From a virus, in IMG/VR virus record IMGVR_UViG_3300008110_009634, positions 1 to 24,851 of that record: a DNA stretch of 24,851 bases; one strand, written 5' to 3'. Positions 2,893 to 15,374 of the stretch are shown here, piece after piece. The notes below the pieces were generated by a model. The model had not been told where the DNA came from. It ran no database searches and worked only from the letters and a program-made list of their open reading frames with translations. A program made the position numbers and the translations under genes. How positions within the stretch are numbered: position 1 is the stretch's first letter; each line of letters begins with the position of its first letter.

Positions 2893-3366
2893 TTAGAACG
2901 GTTCTTGTTCTACAACTTCATCTTCATTTTTTTCTTGCGTTGAGTACATAGATTCAATCGCATTGGCAAAATGTCGTATATCAGGTTGCTCAAGAACAAG
3001 ATTTTGGTTAACACGGTAAATATTTTGGCGATTGACTTTTGTCTTTGTAATTAGACCAGCATTAATTAACTGCTTAACTGTTTTGTCAATCATGGTTTCG
3101 CTTAAATCTAAATATACAGAAATTGCGCGAATAGTCATAGTCGGGTCTTCGATTATCGCAATCAACACACGTCCAGGTGTTGATAGAAGACCTATGTCAG
3201 AATCACGATGGTAACGCAAAACCTTCTTGCTGTCTAATGCGCGAAGTATTTTCTCAAGCGTTTCTTCCGTCGACTCCCCAGGTCTCGCATCGATAACTTC
3301 TTCCAAAGCTTTTTTTTCATACCAAGAGAGAGTAGCAGGTGGGGATAATGCTAAAAGATGCATTGA
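2893..3366 (-). CDS. Winged-helix (MarR/ArsR-like fold) putative regulator
   Basis: The 157-residue protein has a recognisable winged-helix segment: RVLIAIIEDPTMTIRAISVYL, DLSETMIDKTVKQLINAGLI and KVNRQNIYRVN, i.e. helix, recognition helix and wing. The ATG giving MHLLALSPPATLSWYEKKAL is chosen; a longer frame reaches 3447, but it would run deep into the divergent gene. Even so it overlaps the start of the rightward gene at 3348 by about 19 bases, so the two divergent promoters must lie inside each other's 5' ends. Possible role: control of the rightward gene block or the two-gene leftward unit (inference). Confidence 0.65.
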   Translation of the reverse strand, partial: SMHLLALSPPATLSWYEKKALEEVIDARPGESTEETLEKILRALDSKKVLRYHRDSDIGLLSTPGRVLIAIIEDPTMTIRAISVYLDLSETMIDKTVKQLINAGLITKTKVNRQNIYRVNQNLVLEQPDIRHFANAIESMYSTQEKNEDEVVEQEPF

Positions 3367-3617
3367 ATTCGCTGAAGGCGACGCAGGGTAAACAACAGCT
3401 ATGTAAGTTGGGGAAATTGGTCCTTGACCTTGAGGACGAGGAGTCACAACTTCTGGTTGACATATTAAGAAGCGACGTTTCGACGATGAACCTCGTTCGG
3501 ACGCTCAAGTCAGAAGGCATATCGCTAAGCCGAGAATTTCTCGGAGAGAAAAGAAATTGCTTCAAAGATGACGATGAAGCACGGACATGCTGCATAGCAG
3601 AGAGGCTAAAGAAATGA
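3348..3617 (+). CDS. Small putative helix-turn-helix protein
   Basis: The 89-residue protein starts at ATG 3348 behind AGGTGGGG. Its C-terminal half (LVRTLKSEGISLSREFLGEKRNCF) looks like a helix-turn-helix with a basic end, similar in layout to short HTH proteins of actinophages; a terminase-small-subunit-like role is possible but not shown. A GTG at 3339 is an alternative start. The gene overlaps the next one by ATGA (3614-3617), beginning a four-gene rightward block joined by overlaps. Its 5' end overlaps the divergent leftward gene. Confidence 0.6.
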   Translation: MLKDALNSLKATQGKQQLCKLGKLVLDLEDEESQLLVDILRSDVSTMNLVRTLKSEGISLSREFLGEKRNCFKDDDEARTCCIAERLKK

Positions 3618-4831
3618 CCACGAAGAAAAAGCCAACATCAAAACTGGGTGAAAAATTAAAAGCCGTCAAGGTGACCCAGCAAAAAGAAGATGCTAGCGCC
3701 AAGGCCCTCGGTGATATCGCAGCGATGCTCAAGGCAAAAAACATCGACCCGTCCGAAATTGGGACTATTAACAAAGTGTCGTTGTATCAGACGGTAACAA
3801 AGAACGAATTAGGCGAGACAGAAGTCCATAATTTGCAAGCAATTCAGTTCAGCCCTACCTGGGACTCAGGCCCACAGTGGCCACTGATTGAGCAAGGCCC
3901 CAAGATACAACTACAAAAGTCAACGACAAAAGTTACCCGTCCGAAAGGCTGGGAAGAGGCCGTCATCGTACCTGATATACAAATCGGCTTTTACCGTAAA
4001 TCATTGGATTCTATGGACCTGGAGCCAATCCACGACGAGCAGGCGATAGCGGTAGCTTTGAAACTGATTGAGGACATCCAGCCAAATCAAGTGGTGATGG
4101 TCGGAGACAACTTGGACTTTGCAGAATTCGGCAAATTTTTGACTGCTGCTCCGTTTAAGCAACTAGTTCAGGCAGCTATCGACAGGGCAACAATGCTTTG
4201 TGCCCAAATTAGGTCAGCTGCACCAAATGCAAAAATCTCGTGGATTGCCGGCAACCACGAAGCCAGAATGGCGAGATATGTCCAAACCAACGCTGAAGCC
4301 GCCTTCGGAATCACCAGAGGCAAACTCAATGACGAATTGAGGGATAACTGGCCAGCCATGTCGGTTCCCTACCTCTGCCGAATGGACGAGTTCGGGGTTG
4401 ACTATATTCCTGGATACCCAGAGTCTTATGTCAGCCTGAACGAAAACCTGATGGTCATCCACGGACACAAGGTTACGTCCAATGGTTCAACGACCAGCAA
4501 GTACCTAAATGACGCCCACGTGTCGGTGATATACGGACATATCCACAGGACAGAGTACGCCTTCCGCACTCGTCTGTCCAAGAATGGTCCAAGAACCATC
4601 ATGGCGGCAAGCCCTGGCTGTCTCTGCAGGATAGACGGCGCAGTTCCTTCCACGAAATCTGGCGCAGATGAATTCGGACGCCCTATGCTCATGGGAGCAG
4701 AGAACTGGCAACAGGGAATGGCAGTAGTCCAGTACCAGCCGCCAGGGGTAGGCAACGAATGGTTCAACTACGAGCCAATGTGGATTTACAACGGACGAGG
4801 ATTCTTCCGAGGCAAGGAGTACAGCGCATGA
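3614..4831 (+). CDS. Calcineurin-like metallophosphoesterase
   Basis: The 405-residue protein carries the five metal-binding blocks of the calcineurin-like phosphoesterase fold, in order: VPDIQ (Asp121, Gln123), GDNLD (164-168), GNHEAR (213-218), VIHGH (281-285) and YGHIH (307-311). The first block is D-x-Q instead of the common D-x-H, a variant I associate with phage enzymes. The N-terminal ~110 residues are Lys-rich and then unassigned. The ATG at 3614 gives an ATGA overlap with the gene before it; longer reading would add nine residues. The substrate is unknown: a phosphodiester, nucleic acid or nucleotide is possible. The stop overlaps the next start (ATGA at 4828). Confidence 0.9.
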   Translation: MTTKKKPTSKLGEKLKAVKVTQQKEDASAKALGDIAAMLKAKNIDPSEIGTINKVSLYQTVTKNELGETEVHNLQAIQFSPTWDSGPQWPLIEQGPKIQLQKSTTKVTRPKGWEEAVIVPDIQIGFYRKSLDSMDLEPIHDEQAIAVALKLIEDIQPNQVVMVGDNLDFAEFGKFLTAAPFKQLVQAAIDRATMLCAQIRSAAPNAKISWIAGNHEARMARYVQTNAEAAFGITRGKLNDELRDNWPAMSVPYLCRMDEFGVDYIPGYPESYVSLNENLMVIHGHKVTSNGSTTSKYLNDAHVSVIYGHIHRTEYAFRTRLSKNGPRTIMAASPGCLCRIDGAVPSTKSGADEFGRPMLMGAENWQQGMAVVQYQPPGVGNEWFNYEPMWIYNGRGFFRGKEYSA

Positions 4832-5073
4832 GTTCAAACGACCTTCCGCAAGAGTGGAGCGACTATTCAAAAGAAAACCTCCTCGAAGACATGGAGCTTC
4901 TGAGGGAACAAGGCTTGATTGAAGTAGTAGGGATAAACAGTGACGGTGATTGGCTGTATGCCCTGACCGAATCAACAAGAAAGATAATTGACGAAAACAA
5001 GTCAGACGACCCTTGGGCTGTGATATCACAACTACTCATCGATGAACTACCGAATAGAGACGATATCAGTTGA
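4828..5073 (+). CDS. Small protein with possible winged-helix fold
   Basis: The 81-residue acidic protein contains LLEDMELLREQGLIEVVG, then GDWLYALTESTRKIIDE. This helix followed by a two-stranded wing resembles the second half of a winged-helix domain, with no clear recognition helix ahead of it. The ATG overlaps the stop of the phosphoesterase gene (ATGA). The stop overlaps the TTG start of the Ntn hydrolase gene (TTGA at 5070-5073), so translation of all three is probably coupled. Function unknown. Confidence 0.65.
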   Translation: MSSNDLPQEWSDYSKENLLEDMELLREQGLIEVVGINSDGDWLYALTESTRKIIDENKSDDPWAVISQLLIDELPNRDDIS

Positions 5074-5696
5074 CAACAATAATCGGCATTCAGGGAGATG
5101 GGTTCTGTATAGCGACCGCTGATTCGCGTATCGCTGAGACCGATGCCGAGTCAAATTTGATTTCGCAAATTGTCGGTCTAAAAGAGAACAACAGCAAATT
5201 GGGTATTAACGGTAAATACATCCTCGGTGCTGCCGGCGACTTACGGGCAATAAACATCCTGCATCATGCATTCAGCCCACCAACTCCGCCCCCGAATCTC
5301 AAAGGCAAGAAGCTTGACCATTTTGTTACAGTTAAATTTATCCCAAGCTTGAGAGAATGCTTCGAAGCACAGGGATATGCCTCACCCGACAACGATTCAA
5401 AACAACACATCGCTGAACACGGTTCAACAATATTCATGGCTGTCAATGGACAGATTTACATCATTGACGGTGACTACTCATGGATTTCAGACTCCAGCGG
5501 AATGTTTGCCATCGGAAGCGGCGCTCAGTACGCACTCGGAGCGATGTTCGCCATGCAACCAAAAGGCAAGATGACTGTTGGTGCAGCGCGAAAGCTTGCA
5601 CTAAAAGCAATCGCCGCATCGGCCAAGTTCGACCCATACACCGGTGCTCCGTATCATACGTTTTCACAGGGATTAGATAAAACCACTGACCGCTAG
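5070..5696 (+). CDS. Proteasome beta / HslV-like Ntn hydrolase
   Basis: A protein of about 208 residues related to the 20S beta/HslV Ntn-hydrolase fold. After removal of the initiator Met the chain would begin Thr1-Thr2-Ile-Ile-Gly. Counting from that Thr1, Asp17 falls in CIATADSR, the catalytic Asp position of proteasomes. A lysine in GLKENNSKL is a candidate for the Lys33 equivalent, with a short insertion before it. GINGKYILGAAGDLRA and AIGSGAQYALGAM match the conserved Gly-rich strand and GSG motif. Only a TTG start is possible, because upstream in-frame stops lie close by (5043, 5055). This places the nucleophile directly after Met, with no propeptide. Possible roles: protease in head maturation, degradation of host proteins, or a non-proteolytic Ntn enzyme (inference). 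Confidence 0.8.
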   Translation: MTTIIGIQGDGFCIATADSRIAETDAESNLISQIVGLKENNSKLGINGKYILGAAGDLRAINILHHAFSPPTPPPNLKGKKLDHFVTVKFIPSLRECFEAQGYASPDNDSKQHIAEHGSTIFMAVNGQIYIIDGDYSWISDSSGMFAIGSGAQYALGAMFAMQPKGKMTVGAARKLALKAIAASAKFDPYTGAPYHTFSQGLDKTTDR

Positions 5697-6016: not shown

Positions 6017-6367
6017 ATGACTGGTAAGAAAGAAATATCCAAACAAAAATTACCCAATAAAAATACCCAACCATTTTCAGAGATAGCTATACCTGCGAAA
6101 GATTGGTTTCAACTGGCAGCCTGTAGGGGAAAGACCGAACTAATGTTTCCCAAACAACATAAGGATATTACTTACATTGCACAGGCAAGAACCATCTGCA
6201 GAGCGTGCCCAGTGAGAAGCAAGTGTTTAGAGTACGCACTTGAGTTTCCACCCGCTGATATGCACGGTGTTTGGGCAGGACTAACGAGCAGACAGCTTGC
6301 AGCAGAACAAAGAAGAAGAAAGATAAAGCCGATACGGCCAACGCTTGCACAGATGTGGGGAGGATAG
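6017..6367 (+). CDS. whiB: WhiB-family Fe-S transcription regulator
   Basis: The 116-residue protein is a complete WhiB-type (Wbl) regulator. The four Fe-S cysteines are Cys36 (AACRG), Cys61 and Cys64 (ICRACP) and Cys70 (SKCLEYAL). They are followed by GVWAG (84-88), the usual G-[VI]-W-G-G turn with Ala in fourth place, and a basic C-terminus (RQLAAEQRRRKIK) for DNA contact. Wbl proteins are restricted to Actinobacteria and their phages and act by binding the principal sigma factor. This one therefore probably redirects host RNA polymerase or mimics a host Wbl. Its start follows GAGGAG. It is monocistronic and divergent from the leftward replication operon. Confidence 0.95.
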   Translation: MTGKKEISKQKLPNKNTQPFSEIAIPAKDWFQLAACRGKTELMFPKQHKDITYIAQARTICRACPVRSKCLEYALEFPPADMHGVWAGLTSRQLAAEQRRRKIKPIRPTLAQMWGG

Positions 6368-13104: not shown

Positions 13105-14646
13105 TCAAGCGAGTGGGATTTTGCCCATGTGTCTGCGCCACACATCACGGAACATCGCTGGATAGACACTCCGTGCCGTTCCACCGTTGCTCAATGACTT
13201 GAGTTGCTTTATCGCTTCCTCAACATGAGGAACAACGATGTAGTTGTTCTTGCGAGCGTAGGTGAGACACTGCATAGCGAGTGAATCGTGGAAACTGTCG
13301 TTCACACCACACACTCCACCATCTGTCACCCACACGAGAGGAGTGCGAGAATCTTTGCGATTCTTTACGCCCCACTGAATCGCTGGATAGTCCACGCCGT
13401 TGCCGTGTCCGTAGTCAATTCCTTCCACTGTCTCAACCATGCGTCCTTTGTCGCCAACGACCCATGCGTTATGACCACGACTACCTCTGTCGGAGTAGAG
13501 CAACACAGTAGCCCCAGGGGCATGCTCAATGATTTCGGCAATTTGTTCTGTCGTGAACGACATAGAACCACTTGCGTCAATAACGACCATGCCACCACTG
13601 CCACGCACCTTTCGGTCAAACACTCGCATAGCAGGGTCGGTCATCATGCGTTGCATACGGCGAGGTCTGCGACCTGCATTTGTTGCAATACGCTTCTTAC
13701 CGATACCACCTTTGCTGTAGCGAGGCATTGGCATACGCTCAAGACGAAGTTCGCCCCATTTCGGAGTGCCAGTGGTGATAGCAGACGGAGTTATGTCCTT
13801 GAGTGGATTTCCGTCCTTGTCGCCTTCACCTTCCTTGCCTTCGCCTTCGTTGCTGTGGGCTTTGGACTTATCTAGTGAGTTACCTTCGCCCTCACCACCA
13901 GCCTTGCCCTTGCTCGGCTTTGGTTGCTTCCGTTCCTTTGGTGGTGGGAACGAAGCGAGCCTGTCCACCCACTCGGCGAGTTGTTCCGTGTAGGTGAATC
14001 CGAACGGCGCAAGTCCGTTGTGAACTGTCGTGTTAGCCAAGTGACCAGTGCGATGAGCCTTCTTCATCTCACGCACGGCTCGCTTGCCAATGTCTAACAG
14101 TTGGTCGCCCCATGCACGATTCACTCTGCGAACGCCGTTGAGAAATTGCTTGTGTCCAGCACTTCCAGCAGTTCCAACGCACATAGCAACTGCCATCGCC
14201 CAGTCGTTAGTTTCTGCGCAACGCTGTCCACTTGCAAGTTCGCTTCCGTCAGCAAGGTGCTTCTTTACATCTATCCCTGCCTGTTGGCAGAGAAAGTTCA
14301 CACGAAGTTCCTCAACGACAGTGAGTGCTGTAGCCGAAGCCATTTCACGCTTGACCCACTCTGCCATTTGTGCCGAATCAGGCGACACCTTTGCGTGCAT
14401 GAGTTCGTGCGCACGAATCGCCCGAGCCTTGTCGTCATTGTCCGTTGGTGCGAACATGATTTTGTTGGTCACATCGGTCATTGGCTCGCCACGCACGGCT
14501 TGGCAGTGTTCCACTGTCCAAACTCCGTGTGCTTGGTCACGCCGACCGAGAAGGGTTGCCTCGGCTTTGGCGTTACCCCGAGTGGACTTATCTAGTCCAC
14601 TCGGGAACGCCTTGCCAGCAACATGCTTGCCAGCAGGTTGAGACAT
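13105..14646 (-). CDS. VWA-domain protein with N-terminal HExxH zincin motif
   Basis: The 513-residue protein has three parts. Residues about 60-200 contain RAIRAHELMHAK, an HExxH metallopeptidase motif (80-84), with a following VVEELRVNF (110-118) that could supply a third ligand. A disordered Gly/Glu/Lys linker follows (238-282). The VWA domain (350-510) has the MIDAS DASGSMS (357-363), GNGVDYPAI and WVTDGG. The layout resembles CobT-like / DUF2201-type VWA proteins that work with MoxR ATPases. The partner gene lies directly upstream with a TAATG overlap. Two operator copies are within the gene, each read as LDK (residues 18-20 and 258-260), in the flexible N-terminus and the linker. Substrate unknown. 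Confidence 0.85.
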   Translation of the reverse strand: MSQPAGKHVAGKAFPSGLDKSTRGNAKAEATLLGRRDQAHGVWTVEHCQAVRGEPMTDVTNKIMFAPTDNDDKARAIRAHELMHAKVSPDSAQMAEWVKREMASATALTVVEELRVNFLCQQAGIDVKKHLADGSELASGQRCAETNDWAMAVAMCVGTAGSAGHKQFLNGVRRVNRAWGDQLLDIGKRAVREMKKAHRTGHLANTTVHNGLAPFGFTYTEQLAEWVDRLASFPPPKERKQPKPSKGKAGGEGEGNSLDKSKAHSNEGEGKEGEGDKDGNPLKDITPSAITTGTPKWGELRLERMPMPRYSKGGIGKKRIATNAGRRPRRMQRMMTDPAMRVFDRKVRGSGGMVVIDASGSMSFTTEQIAEIIEHAPGATVLLYSDRGSRGHNAWVVGDKGRMVETVEGIDYGHGNGVDYPAIQWGVKNRKDSRTPLVWVTDGGVCGVNDSFHDSLAMQCLTYARKNNYIVVPHVEEAIKQLKSLSNGGTARSVYPAMFRDVWRRHMGKIPLA

Positions 14647-15374
14647 TATTTCACCCCGTCAATGGCGAGTGCGTCAAGAATCTGACGGGAACGGTCGCCG
14701 AAAGTGAGTGAGCATGCTCGTTCCATGCCAACGCTCGCACGGAGTTTGTCCAATGCGATGAACGCACGAAGTGAGATACGGTCGTCACCAGCGTCAGCCA
14801 TGCGAACGGCGTACTTGCGCAAGTCAGGAGACAAGCGAAGCAGTGCGCTCGGGTGTGGCTCGTTGATACGAATACGAATCGGGAAACGGTCAGCGAGTGC
14901 TGTTGGCAACTCACCCATGTTCTCAATGTTCGTGGTCATAATCGCCGAGAATCCACCGAGAGGACGAATCACCTCGCCAGTTTCAGGATGCTCAAACGAA
15001 GCAGATTCAGGTGAATCCAACATCGCCAAGAGTGTTGCGAACACATCGCCCGAAGCCTTATCTACTTCGTCCACGATGAGCCGTCCACCCTCTGTTCCGT
15101 TGCCCTTCCATGCCTTGAGAGCCGAACCGTCCAGCCACATGAAGCCACCTTTGCCGTTCGGCATGAAGCCACCTGTAACATCCATGTTCGTCATGTCCTC
15201 GGTGCAGACCAGTCGGAACGCACCAGCGTCCACTTTGCCGAGCGTCATGCCAGCGTAGGTCTTTCCGATACCTGATGGACCGTAGAGGATTACTCGGTCT
15301 ATCCCTGCGTTGAGGCAGTCCTCAAGTGCTTTCCAGCACTCGGGGAGAGCCGTTGTTTCTGTCTGTGCAACCAT
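14646..15374 (-). CDS. MoxR-family AAA+ ATPase
   Basis: A 242-residue AAA+ ATPase: Walker A GPSGIGKT (32-39), Walker B LIVDEVDKA (99-107), sensor-1 MTTN (146-149), and ALADRF (159-164), which matches the arginine-finger box of MoxR/CobS/McrB-type ATPases. MoxR proteins remodel or activate a client with the help of a VWA partner, here the next gene. GGAG precedes the ATG. A leftward promoter lies at 15419-15446. The pair could load metal, assemble a complex or remodel a host target (inference). Confidence 0.9.
   Translation of the reverse strand: MVAQTETTALPECWKALEDCLNAGIDRVILYGPSGIGKTYAGMTLGKVDAGAFRLVCTEDMTNMDVTGGFMPNGKGGFMWLDGSALKAWKGNGTEGGRLIVDEVDKASGDVFATLLAMLDSPESASFEHPETGEVIRPLGGFSAIMTTNIENMGELPTALADRFPIRIRINEPHPSALLRLSPDLRKYAVRMADAGDDRISLRAFIALDKLRASVGMERACSLTFGDRSRQILDALAIDGVK

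Follow-up and report, generated by a model that had tools for sequence, protein, structure and literature searches.

A predicted proteasome-like Ntn hydrolase encoded together with a metallophosphoesterase in a phage of freshwater actinobacteria

Sequence profiles and a structural model place the protein encoded at positions 5070-5696 of the window (the whole stretch of 24,851 nucleotides analysed here, an IMG/VR virus contig) among the proteasome-like Ntn hydrolases of the PF00227 superfamily. Its most probable function is that of an active threonine peptidase, one maintained under strong selection. The explanation that we favour, with some reservation, is a predicted homo-oligomeric, propeptide-free threonine peptidase that resembles the betaproteobacterial proteasome homologue (BPH) and works without a dedicated ATPase. 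The fold, the catalytic set, the Met-Thr start, the single gene copy, the purifying selection and the coupling to a phosphoesterase gene were all supported by computation. Endolysin, holin-like and WhiB genes were found near the Ntn gene, and WhiB genes served as the markers by which the phages were recognised as actinophages. The phage origin suggested earlier was thereby confirmed and the actinophage origin supported, and the source is a virus of freshwater actinobacteria. The features discussed below are as follows.

3587..4831, plus strand: 414-aa calcineurin-like metallophosphoesterase, whose gene opens the coupled unit (Pfam Metallophos 3e-4; PHROG 20266 3e-68)
4828..5073, plus strand: small protein, 81 aa, possibly winged-helix-like (weak DUF2513 match, below cut-off)
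5070..5696, plus strand: predicted proteasome-like Ntn hydrolase, 208 aa, TTG start, stop TAG, propeptide-free
5073..5075, plus strand: Thr1 codon (T2 when Met is numbered), expected N-terminal nucleophile, invariant in 150/150 viral relatives
5121..5123, plus strand: Asp17 codon (D18), invariant in 150/150 viral relatives
5196..5198, plus strand: Lys33 codon (K43), invariant in 150/150, aligned with Lys33 of E. coli HslV
5370..5426, plus strand: acidic loop between H2 and S7, residues 101-119, at the pore-loop position (from alignment and model)
5514..5540, plus strand: GSGAQYALG motif, residues 149-157, Ser129 region; G149 and G151 invariant and S/T at 150 in 150 relatives
5631..5642, plus strand: Asp166 (D188) and Thr169 (T191) positions, invariant in 150/150 viral relatives
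6017..6367, plus strand: WhiB-like regulator (Pfam Whib 2e-15), a neighbour and actinophage marker outside the coupled unit

Start codon, catalytic residues and predicted fold

The TTG codon at 5070 is the only ATG, GTG or TTG between the in-frame stop codon (TAG, 5055-5057) and residue 30 of the ORF, so that Thr directly follows Met in the encoded protein. The original prediction of an ORF with a single possible start, Thr1 right after Met and no propeptide was therefore correct. Asp17 and the GSGAQYALG motif, which it had also named, were present, and Lys33, Gly47, Asp166 and Thr169 were recognised besides. Gly47 (G56) was invariant among 150 viral relatives, and the Ser169 position is occupied by Thr (T191).

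The viral scan with the protein yielded 228 relatives, and the profile scan of IMG/VR with the family yielded at least 588 loci. The loci taken from both scans were the best 80 of each, a sample that leans towards close relatives. In all 150 viral relatives whose start could be read, Thr-Thr came right after the start codon (ATG in 127, TTG in 17 and GTG in 6). Conservation of Thr1 among relatives had been proposed as a check on the assignment, and the residue was invariant throughout. Where dN/dS could be computed, it ranged from 0.05 to 0.14, values that are rough as dS was high in most pairs; the codon comparisons indicate strong purifying selection on the gene.

The protein matched the Pfam family PF00227 Proteasome above the cut-off (6e-7; 29.7 bits, cut-off 22.4) and PHROG 1040, 'peptidase HslV family' (1e-22). 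Considering these scores together with the Thr-Thr start in 150/150 relatives and the dN/dS range, the Ntn assignment is not a chance result. BPH and HslV chains were also matched in a profile search with the family; AlphaRep, the top match of that search, was discounted as a repeat artefact. AlphaFold modelling from a 32-sequence alignment gave two good models out of five (pLDDT 82 and 79) and three poor ones (53-59), the best reaching a pLDDT of 81.8 and a pTM of 0.80. When this model was compared with the PDB using Foldseek, BPH ranked first (E 2e-11), followed by HslV and then by proteasome beta subunits. The TM-scores of about 0.55-0.78 and the rmsd of around 5 Å point to the same fold with clear divergence. 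The alpha-beta-beta-alpha fold, which the original prediction had put forward as a second check, was thus seen in the model, and its view of a proteasome/HslV-type Ntn hydrolase was supported by Pfam, PHROG 1040 and structure prediction alike.

Two stretches of the chain bear on the possible mode of action. The loop between H2 and S7 comprises 19-20 residues with a net charge of -1 to -4 in 32/32 aligned members and aligned without gaps to BPH in the profile search; AlphaFold modelled it with low confidence. The stretch between Asp17 and Lys33, which adjoins the active site, comprises 21-24 residues in the family and is longer than that of HslV.

Position within the proteasome superfamily

Viral relatives of the proteasome are already known: PHROG 1040, the groups named PPH and AAH (PMC8665760) and, in Alteromonas phage V22, a gene described as 'proteasome-like' (PMC7289586). 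A superfamily tree was built from 38 sequences, without CPH, in which the rows taken as AAH, PPH and BPH had been identified from taxonomy or similarity (BPH by similarity to the PDB 5ovs fragment, AAH by taxonomy) and not by published accessions. The family grouped with the proteins of phages DSL-LC01, Pumpernickel and Pitbull (96/87). The AAH-like and PPH-like sequences, i.e., Rhizobium/Streptomyces plasmid proteins and PPH-like phage proteins, formed a separate clade (99/97). HslV and BPH were placed together (97/90), apart from the family, with HslV as a clade of its own (100/100) that is closer to BPH than to the family. The family therefore grouped with neither AAH nor BPH. The HslV equivalog cut-offs were also missed by far (25.7 bits versus 157.75 for TIGR03692; 25.9 versus 137 for NF003964), and these cut-offs and the tree ruled out membership in HslV.

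The original prediction had likened the exposed Thr1 to HslV. The position of Thr1 after Met without a propeptide was upheld, but the implied kinship was not supported by the tree or by the literature. Among these homologues a propeptide is confined to the beta subunits of the proteasome and to HslV, the others having none (Fuchs et al. 2021, PMC8665760), so its absence here is what one would expect and is no sign of kinship with HslV. Consistently, the phage and plasmid homologues examined start with Met-Thr or Met-Ser. The protein shares with HslV (ClpQ) the fold, the catalytic residues and the Met-Thr-Thr start of the E. coli enzyme, but it differs in its clade, in its long pore loop and in that no HslU gene was found alongside in records that may be incomplete.

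The similarities to BPH (PDB 5ovs, 5ovt, 5ovu) are the fold, the best PDB match, the propeptide-free start, the long acidic pore loop and the lack of a visible dedicated ATPase in the window's lineage. H2 and S7 are joined by a short linker in HslV, whereas BPH has a long acidic pore loop (PMC5777263). On the other hand, BPH is only about 21% identical to the protein and lies in a separate clade, and the protein studied here is viral, is encoded in a phosphoesterase operon and has a longer Asp17-Lys33 stretch. With AAH and PPH (PMC8665760) it shares a place among phage-borne Group I proteasome homologues, and the relatives examined start with Met-Thr and lack a propeptide. PPH, however, has about 140 residues and no helix H2 (PMC8665760), in contrast to the 208 residues and the modelled helix at residues 83-100 of the present protein. 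Fuchs et al. 2021 (PMC8665760) reported AAH from no phage specific to Actinobacteria and described no neighbourhood of genes that was informative. AAH-like proteasome homologues were frequent on large Rhizobium/Sinorhizobium plasmids, many of which come from legume hosts or from nodules.

Between the protein of the window and that of DSL-LC01, identity is 46%. The relatives in Microbacterium, Arthrobacter and DSL-LC01 phages are annotated as 'protease' or 'ATP-dependent protease subunit', annotations that come without a mechanism. Moorella, Geobacillus, Tenacibaculum and Vibrio phages carry more distant homologues. Distant homologues adjoin or lie near thymidylate synthase genes (ThyX directly upstream in Pumpernickel; Geobacillus E3; ThyX downstream on a Bacillus plasmid), which may be a coincidence. 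Among 84,980 bacterial and archaeal genomes, the family was found at one locus, on a contig within a Gammaproteobacteria MAG. Since this sole cellular-genome locus has a phage gene order, the close family appears to be viral. The contig shares the gene order of the window, including WhiB, and is probably a misbinned actinophage.

Coupling to a phosphoesterase gene and wider neighbourhood

The start of ORF 4828-5073 overlaps the stop of the metallophosphoesterase gene (3587-4831), and its own stop is overlapped by the TTG start of the Ntn gene. Of the 48 dereplicated loci that extend at least 1.3 kb upstream, 38 carry a phosphoesterase gene no more than 1 kb ahead of the Ntn gene. The link to a metallophosphoesterase and a small protein described by the original prediction was accordingly seen in the window, and its phosphoesterase part in these loci as well. 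In 19 of the 38 loci the phosphoesterase gene abuts or overlaps the Ntn start, and the other 19 leave space for one small ORF. Relatives of the small ORF were found in 60 fetched loci; with relatives only there and no room for it in 19/38 loci, it was ruled out as an essential part of the unit. The remaining 10/48 loci belong mostly to a second lineage, with contigs of up to 216 kb, different neighbours and no adjacent phosphoesterase gene. The coupling in 38/48 loci and the other neighbours in 10/48 show that the phosphoesterase and the Ntn enzyme are strongly associated in one lineage and are not obligate partners. DSL-LC01, Pumpernickel, LeeroyJenkins and Pitbull did not show the coupling.

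The metal-ligand motif residues of the phosphoesterase are conserved, the first metal motif reading D-x-Q, and its model matched Mre11/SbcD-like folds weakly (TM about 0.3). Relatives of this protein are present in many actinophages. In Clavibacter phage CN1A, a phosphoesterase homologue (3617-4951 of the locus) directly follows an endolysin and two holin/anti-holin genes, and no Ntn gene is present. Lysis genes were found within 5.2 kb upstream of the Ntn gene in 29/44 dereplicated loci, and WhiB downstream of it in 21/44. A TrmB/MarR-like winged-helix regulator gene (2893-3447, minus strand), divergent from the phosphoesterase gene, may encode the regulator of this unit. Scans for promoters and terminators found sites no more often than in shuffled sequences. 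A PADLOC search with the Ntn, phosphoesterase and small-ORF genes returned no match, and their reading as an anti-phage defence system was rejected on this basis.

Predicted mode of action and implications

Exactly one Ntn gene was present in each of 16 long phage records, and any ring would therefore be homomeric unless host subunits join. That the protein forms a ring of its own is plausible. The BPH-like reading draws on the precedent of BPH, from which Met is removed and which assembles into a tetradecameric double ring with no apparent ATPase partner (PMC5777263). By analogy, Met1 would be removed by the host methionine aminopeptidase, Thr1 would act as the nucleophile together with Lys33 and Asp17, and the subunits would assemble into a homo-oligomeric double ring. 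Without Met1, the protein has a computed mass near 22,070 Da. Through the long acidic pore loop, which may act as a gate, unfolded or small proteins would be admitted with no dedicated ATPase involved. Produced together with the phosphoesterase, often beside lysis genes, the enzyme would be at work in actinobacterial cells during infection and break down a restricted range of proteins of the host or phage. In the long records of the window's lineage, no Clp/HslU-type ATPase (including PF07724) exceeded the cut-off, a result that is suggestive only, given the unclear completeness of the records; the only ATPase of the AAA kind found there was MoxR/CobS-like. The missing ATPase is weak evidence, since these records are fragments or may be incomplete and a host ATPase could serve. 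In the window, the MoxR/CobS-like AAA ATPase gene (14646-15374, minus strand) and a 513-aa gene without family assignment (13105-14646, minus strand) overlap, and DSL-LC01 carries a comparable pair of an AAA gene and a 'cobalamin biosynthesis protein' gene about 8-10 kb before its Ntn gene.

Counting against the BPH-like reading is the second lineage, which lacks the adjacent phosphoesterase and has both ClpB-like and PAN/CDC48-like ATPases. The former, ClpB-D2-like proteins of 390-475 aa, are encoded 53-62 kb from the Ntn gene in 5/6 records, and a CDC48/PAN-like ATPase was likewise found in 5/6 records. In two records (G008 and G005), a phage ATPase of approximately 534 aa, closest to CDC48 and the proteasome-activating nucleotidase, lies about 9 kb from the Ntn gene (376-1980 and 293-1894 in the fetched loci). 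These ATPases, and the place of HslV among the closest solved structures, are what one would expect of an HslV-like peptidase that relies on an AAA+ unfoldase, whether this comes from the host or, in some phages, is encoded by the virus itself. We nevertheless regard this alternative as unlikely, as the ATPases are absent from the window's lineage and are not adjacent to the Ntn gene, the ClpB-D2-like one matches ClpB/ClpA and not HslU, and both the tree and the long pore loop, in place of the short HslV linker (PMC5777263), set the family apart from HslV.

Next in order, and also improbable in our estimation, is a specialised enzyme other than a general protease, i.e., a peptide or protein ligase or amidase, possibly monomeric. 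Connectase provides an example of a monomeric ligase within the superfamily (Fuchs et al. 2021, PMC8665760), and the extended Asp17-Lys33 stretch beside the active site could be read in this sense. However, the connectase signature is an S3-S4 insertion, at a different site, and the full hydrolase set, including the pair at the Asp166/Ser169 positions, is kept.

A proteasome is present in many actinobacteria and WhiB marks the phages as actinophages, and it had been suggested that the protein might mix with host subunits or inhibit them. This suggestion found no support and is very improbable. The M. tuberculosis PrcB chain was absent from the phmmer matches at E<=1, among which BPH, HslV and eukaryotic beta subunits were present, and PrcB resembled the model in fold only (Foldseek rank 43). 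A complete catalytic site under purifying selection would be needless for a plain inhibitor. The distant homologues are also carried by phages whose hosts (Moorella, Geobacillus, Tenacibaculum and Vibrio) are not expected to have a 20S proteasome. Finally, a decaying passenger gene, which the TTG start and the modest Pfam score might suggest, was refuted by the dN/dS values, the invariant active site and the spread over at least 588 IMG/VR loci.

As far as the literature was searched, neither the actinophage clade nor its abundance among viral contigs nor the phosphoesterase coupling appears to have been described. Phage proteasome homologues were listed previously without a gene neighbourhood that hints at function (Fuchs et al. 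2021, PMC8665760), and no mention of the protein was found in papers on freshwater actinophages. More tentatively, and with considerable doubt, the actinophage branch may be a separate one whose proteins act as compartment proteases that are encoded by the virus and independent of ATP. Functionally coupled to a metallophosphoesterase of the lysis region, such an enzyme would break down particular components of the host or phage in the late phase of infection. The family constitutes an actinophage clade that spans at least 588 viral loci and whose partner gene is strongly conserved. Cultured relatives exist (Microbacterium phage Pumpernickel gene 135 and Arthrobacter phage Pitbull gene 77), which, together with the conserved partner, makes the role of a viral proteasome homologue genetically testable. 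If the ATP-independent compartment were confirmed, the protein would be a simple viral self-compartmentalizing protease and, if the functional coupling also held, would form with the metallophosphoesterase a two-enzyme phage module not previously described.
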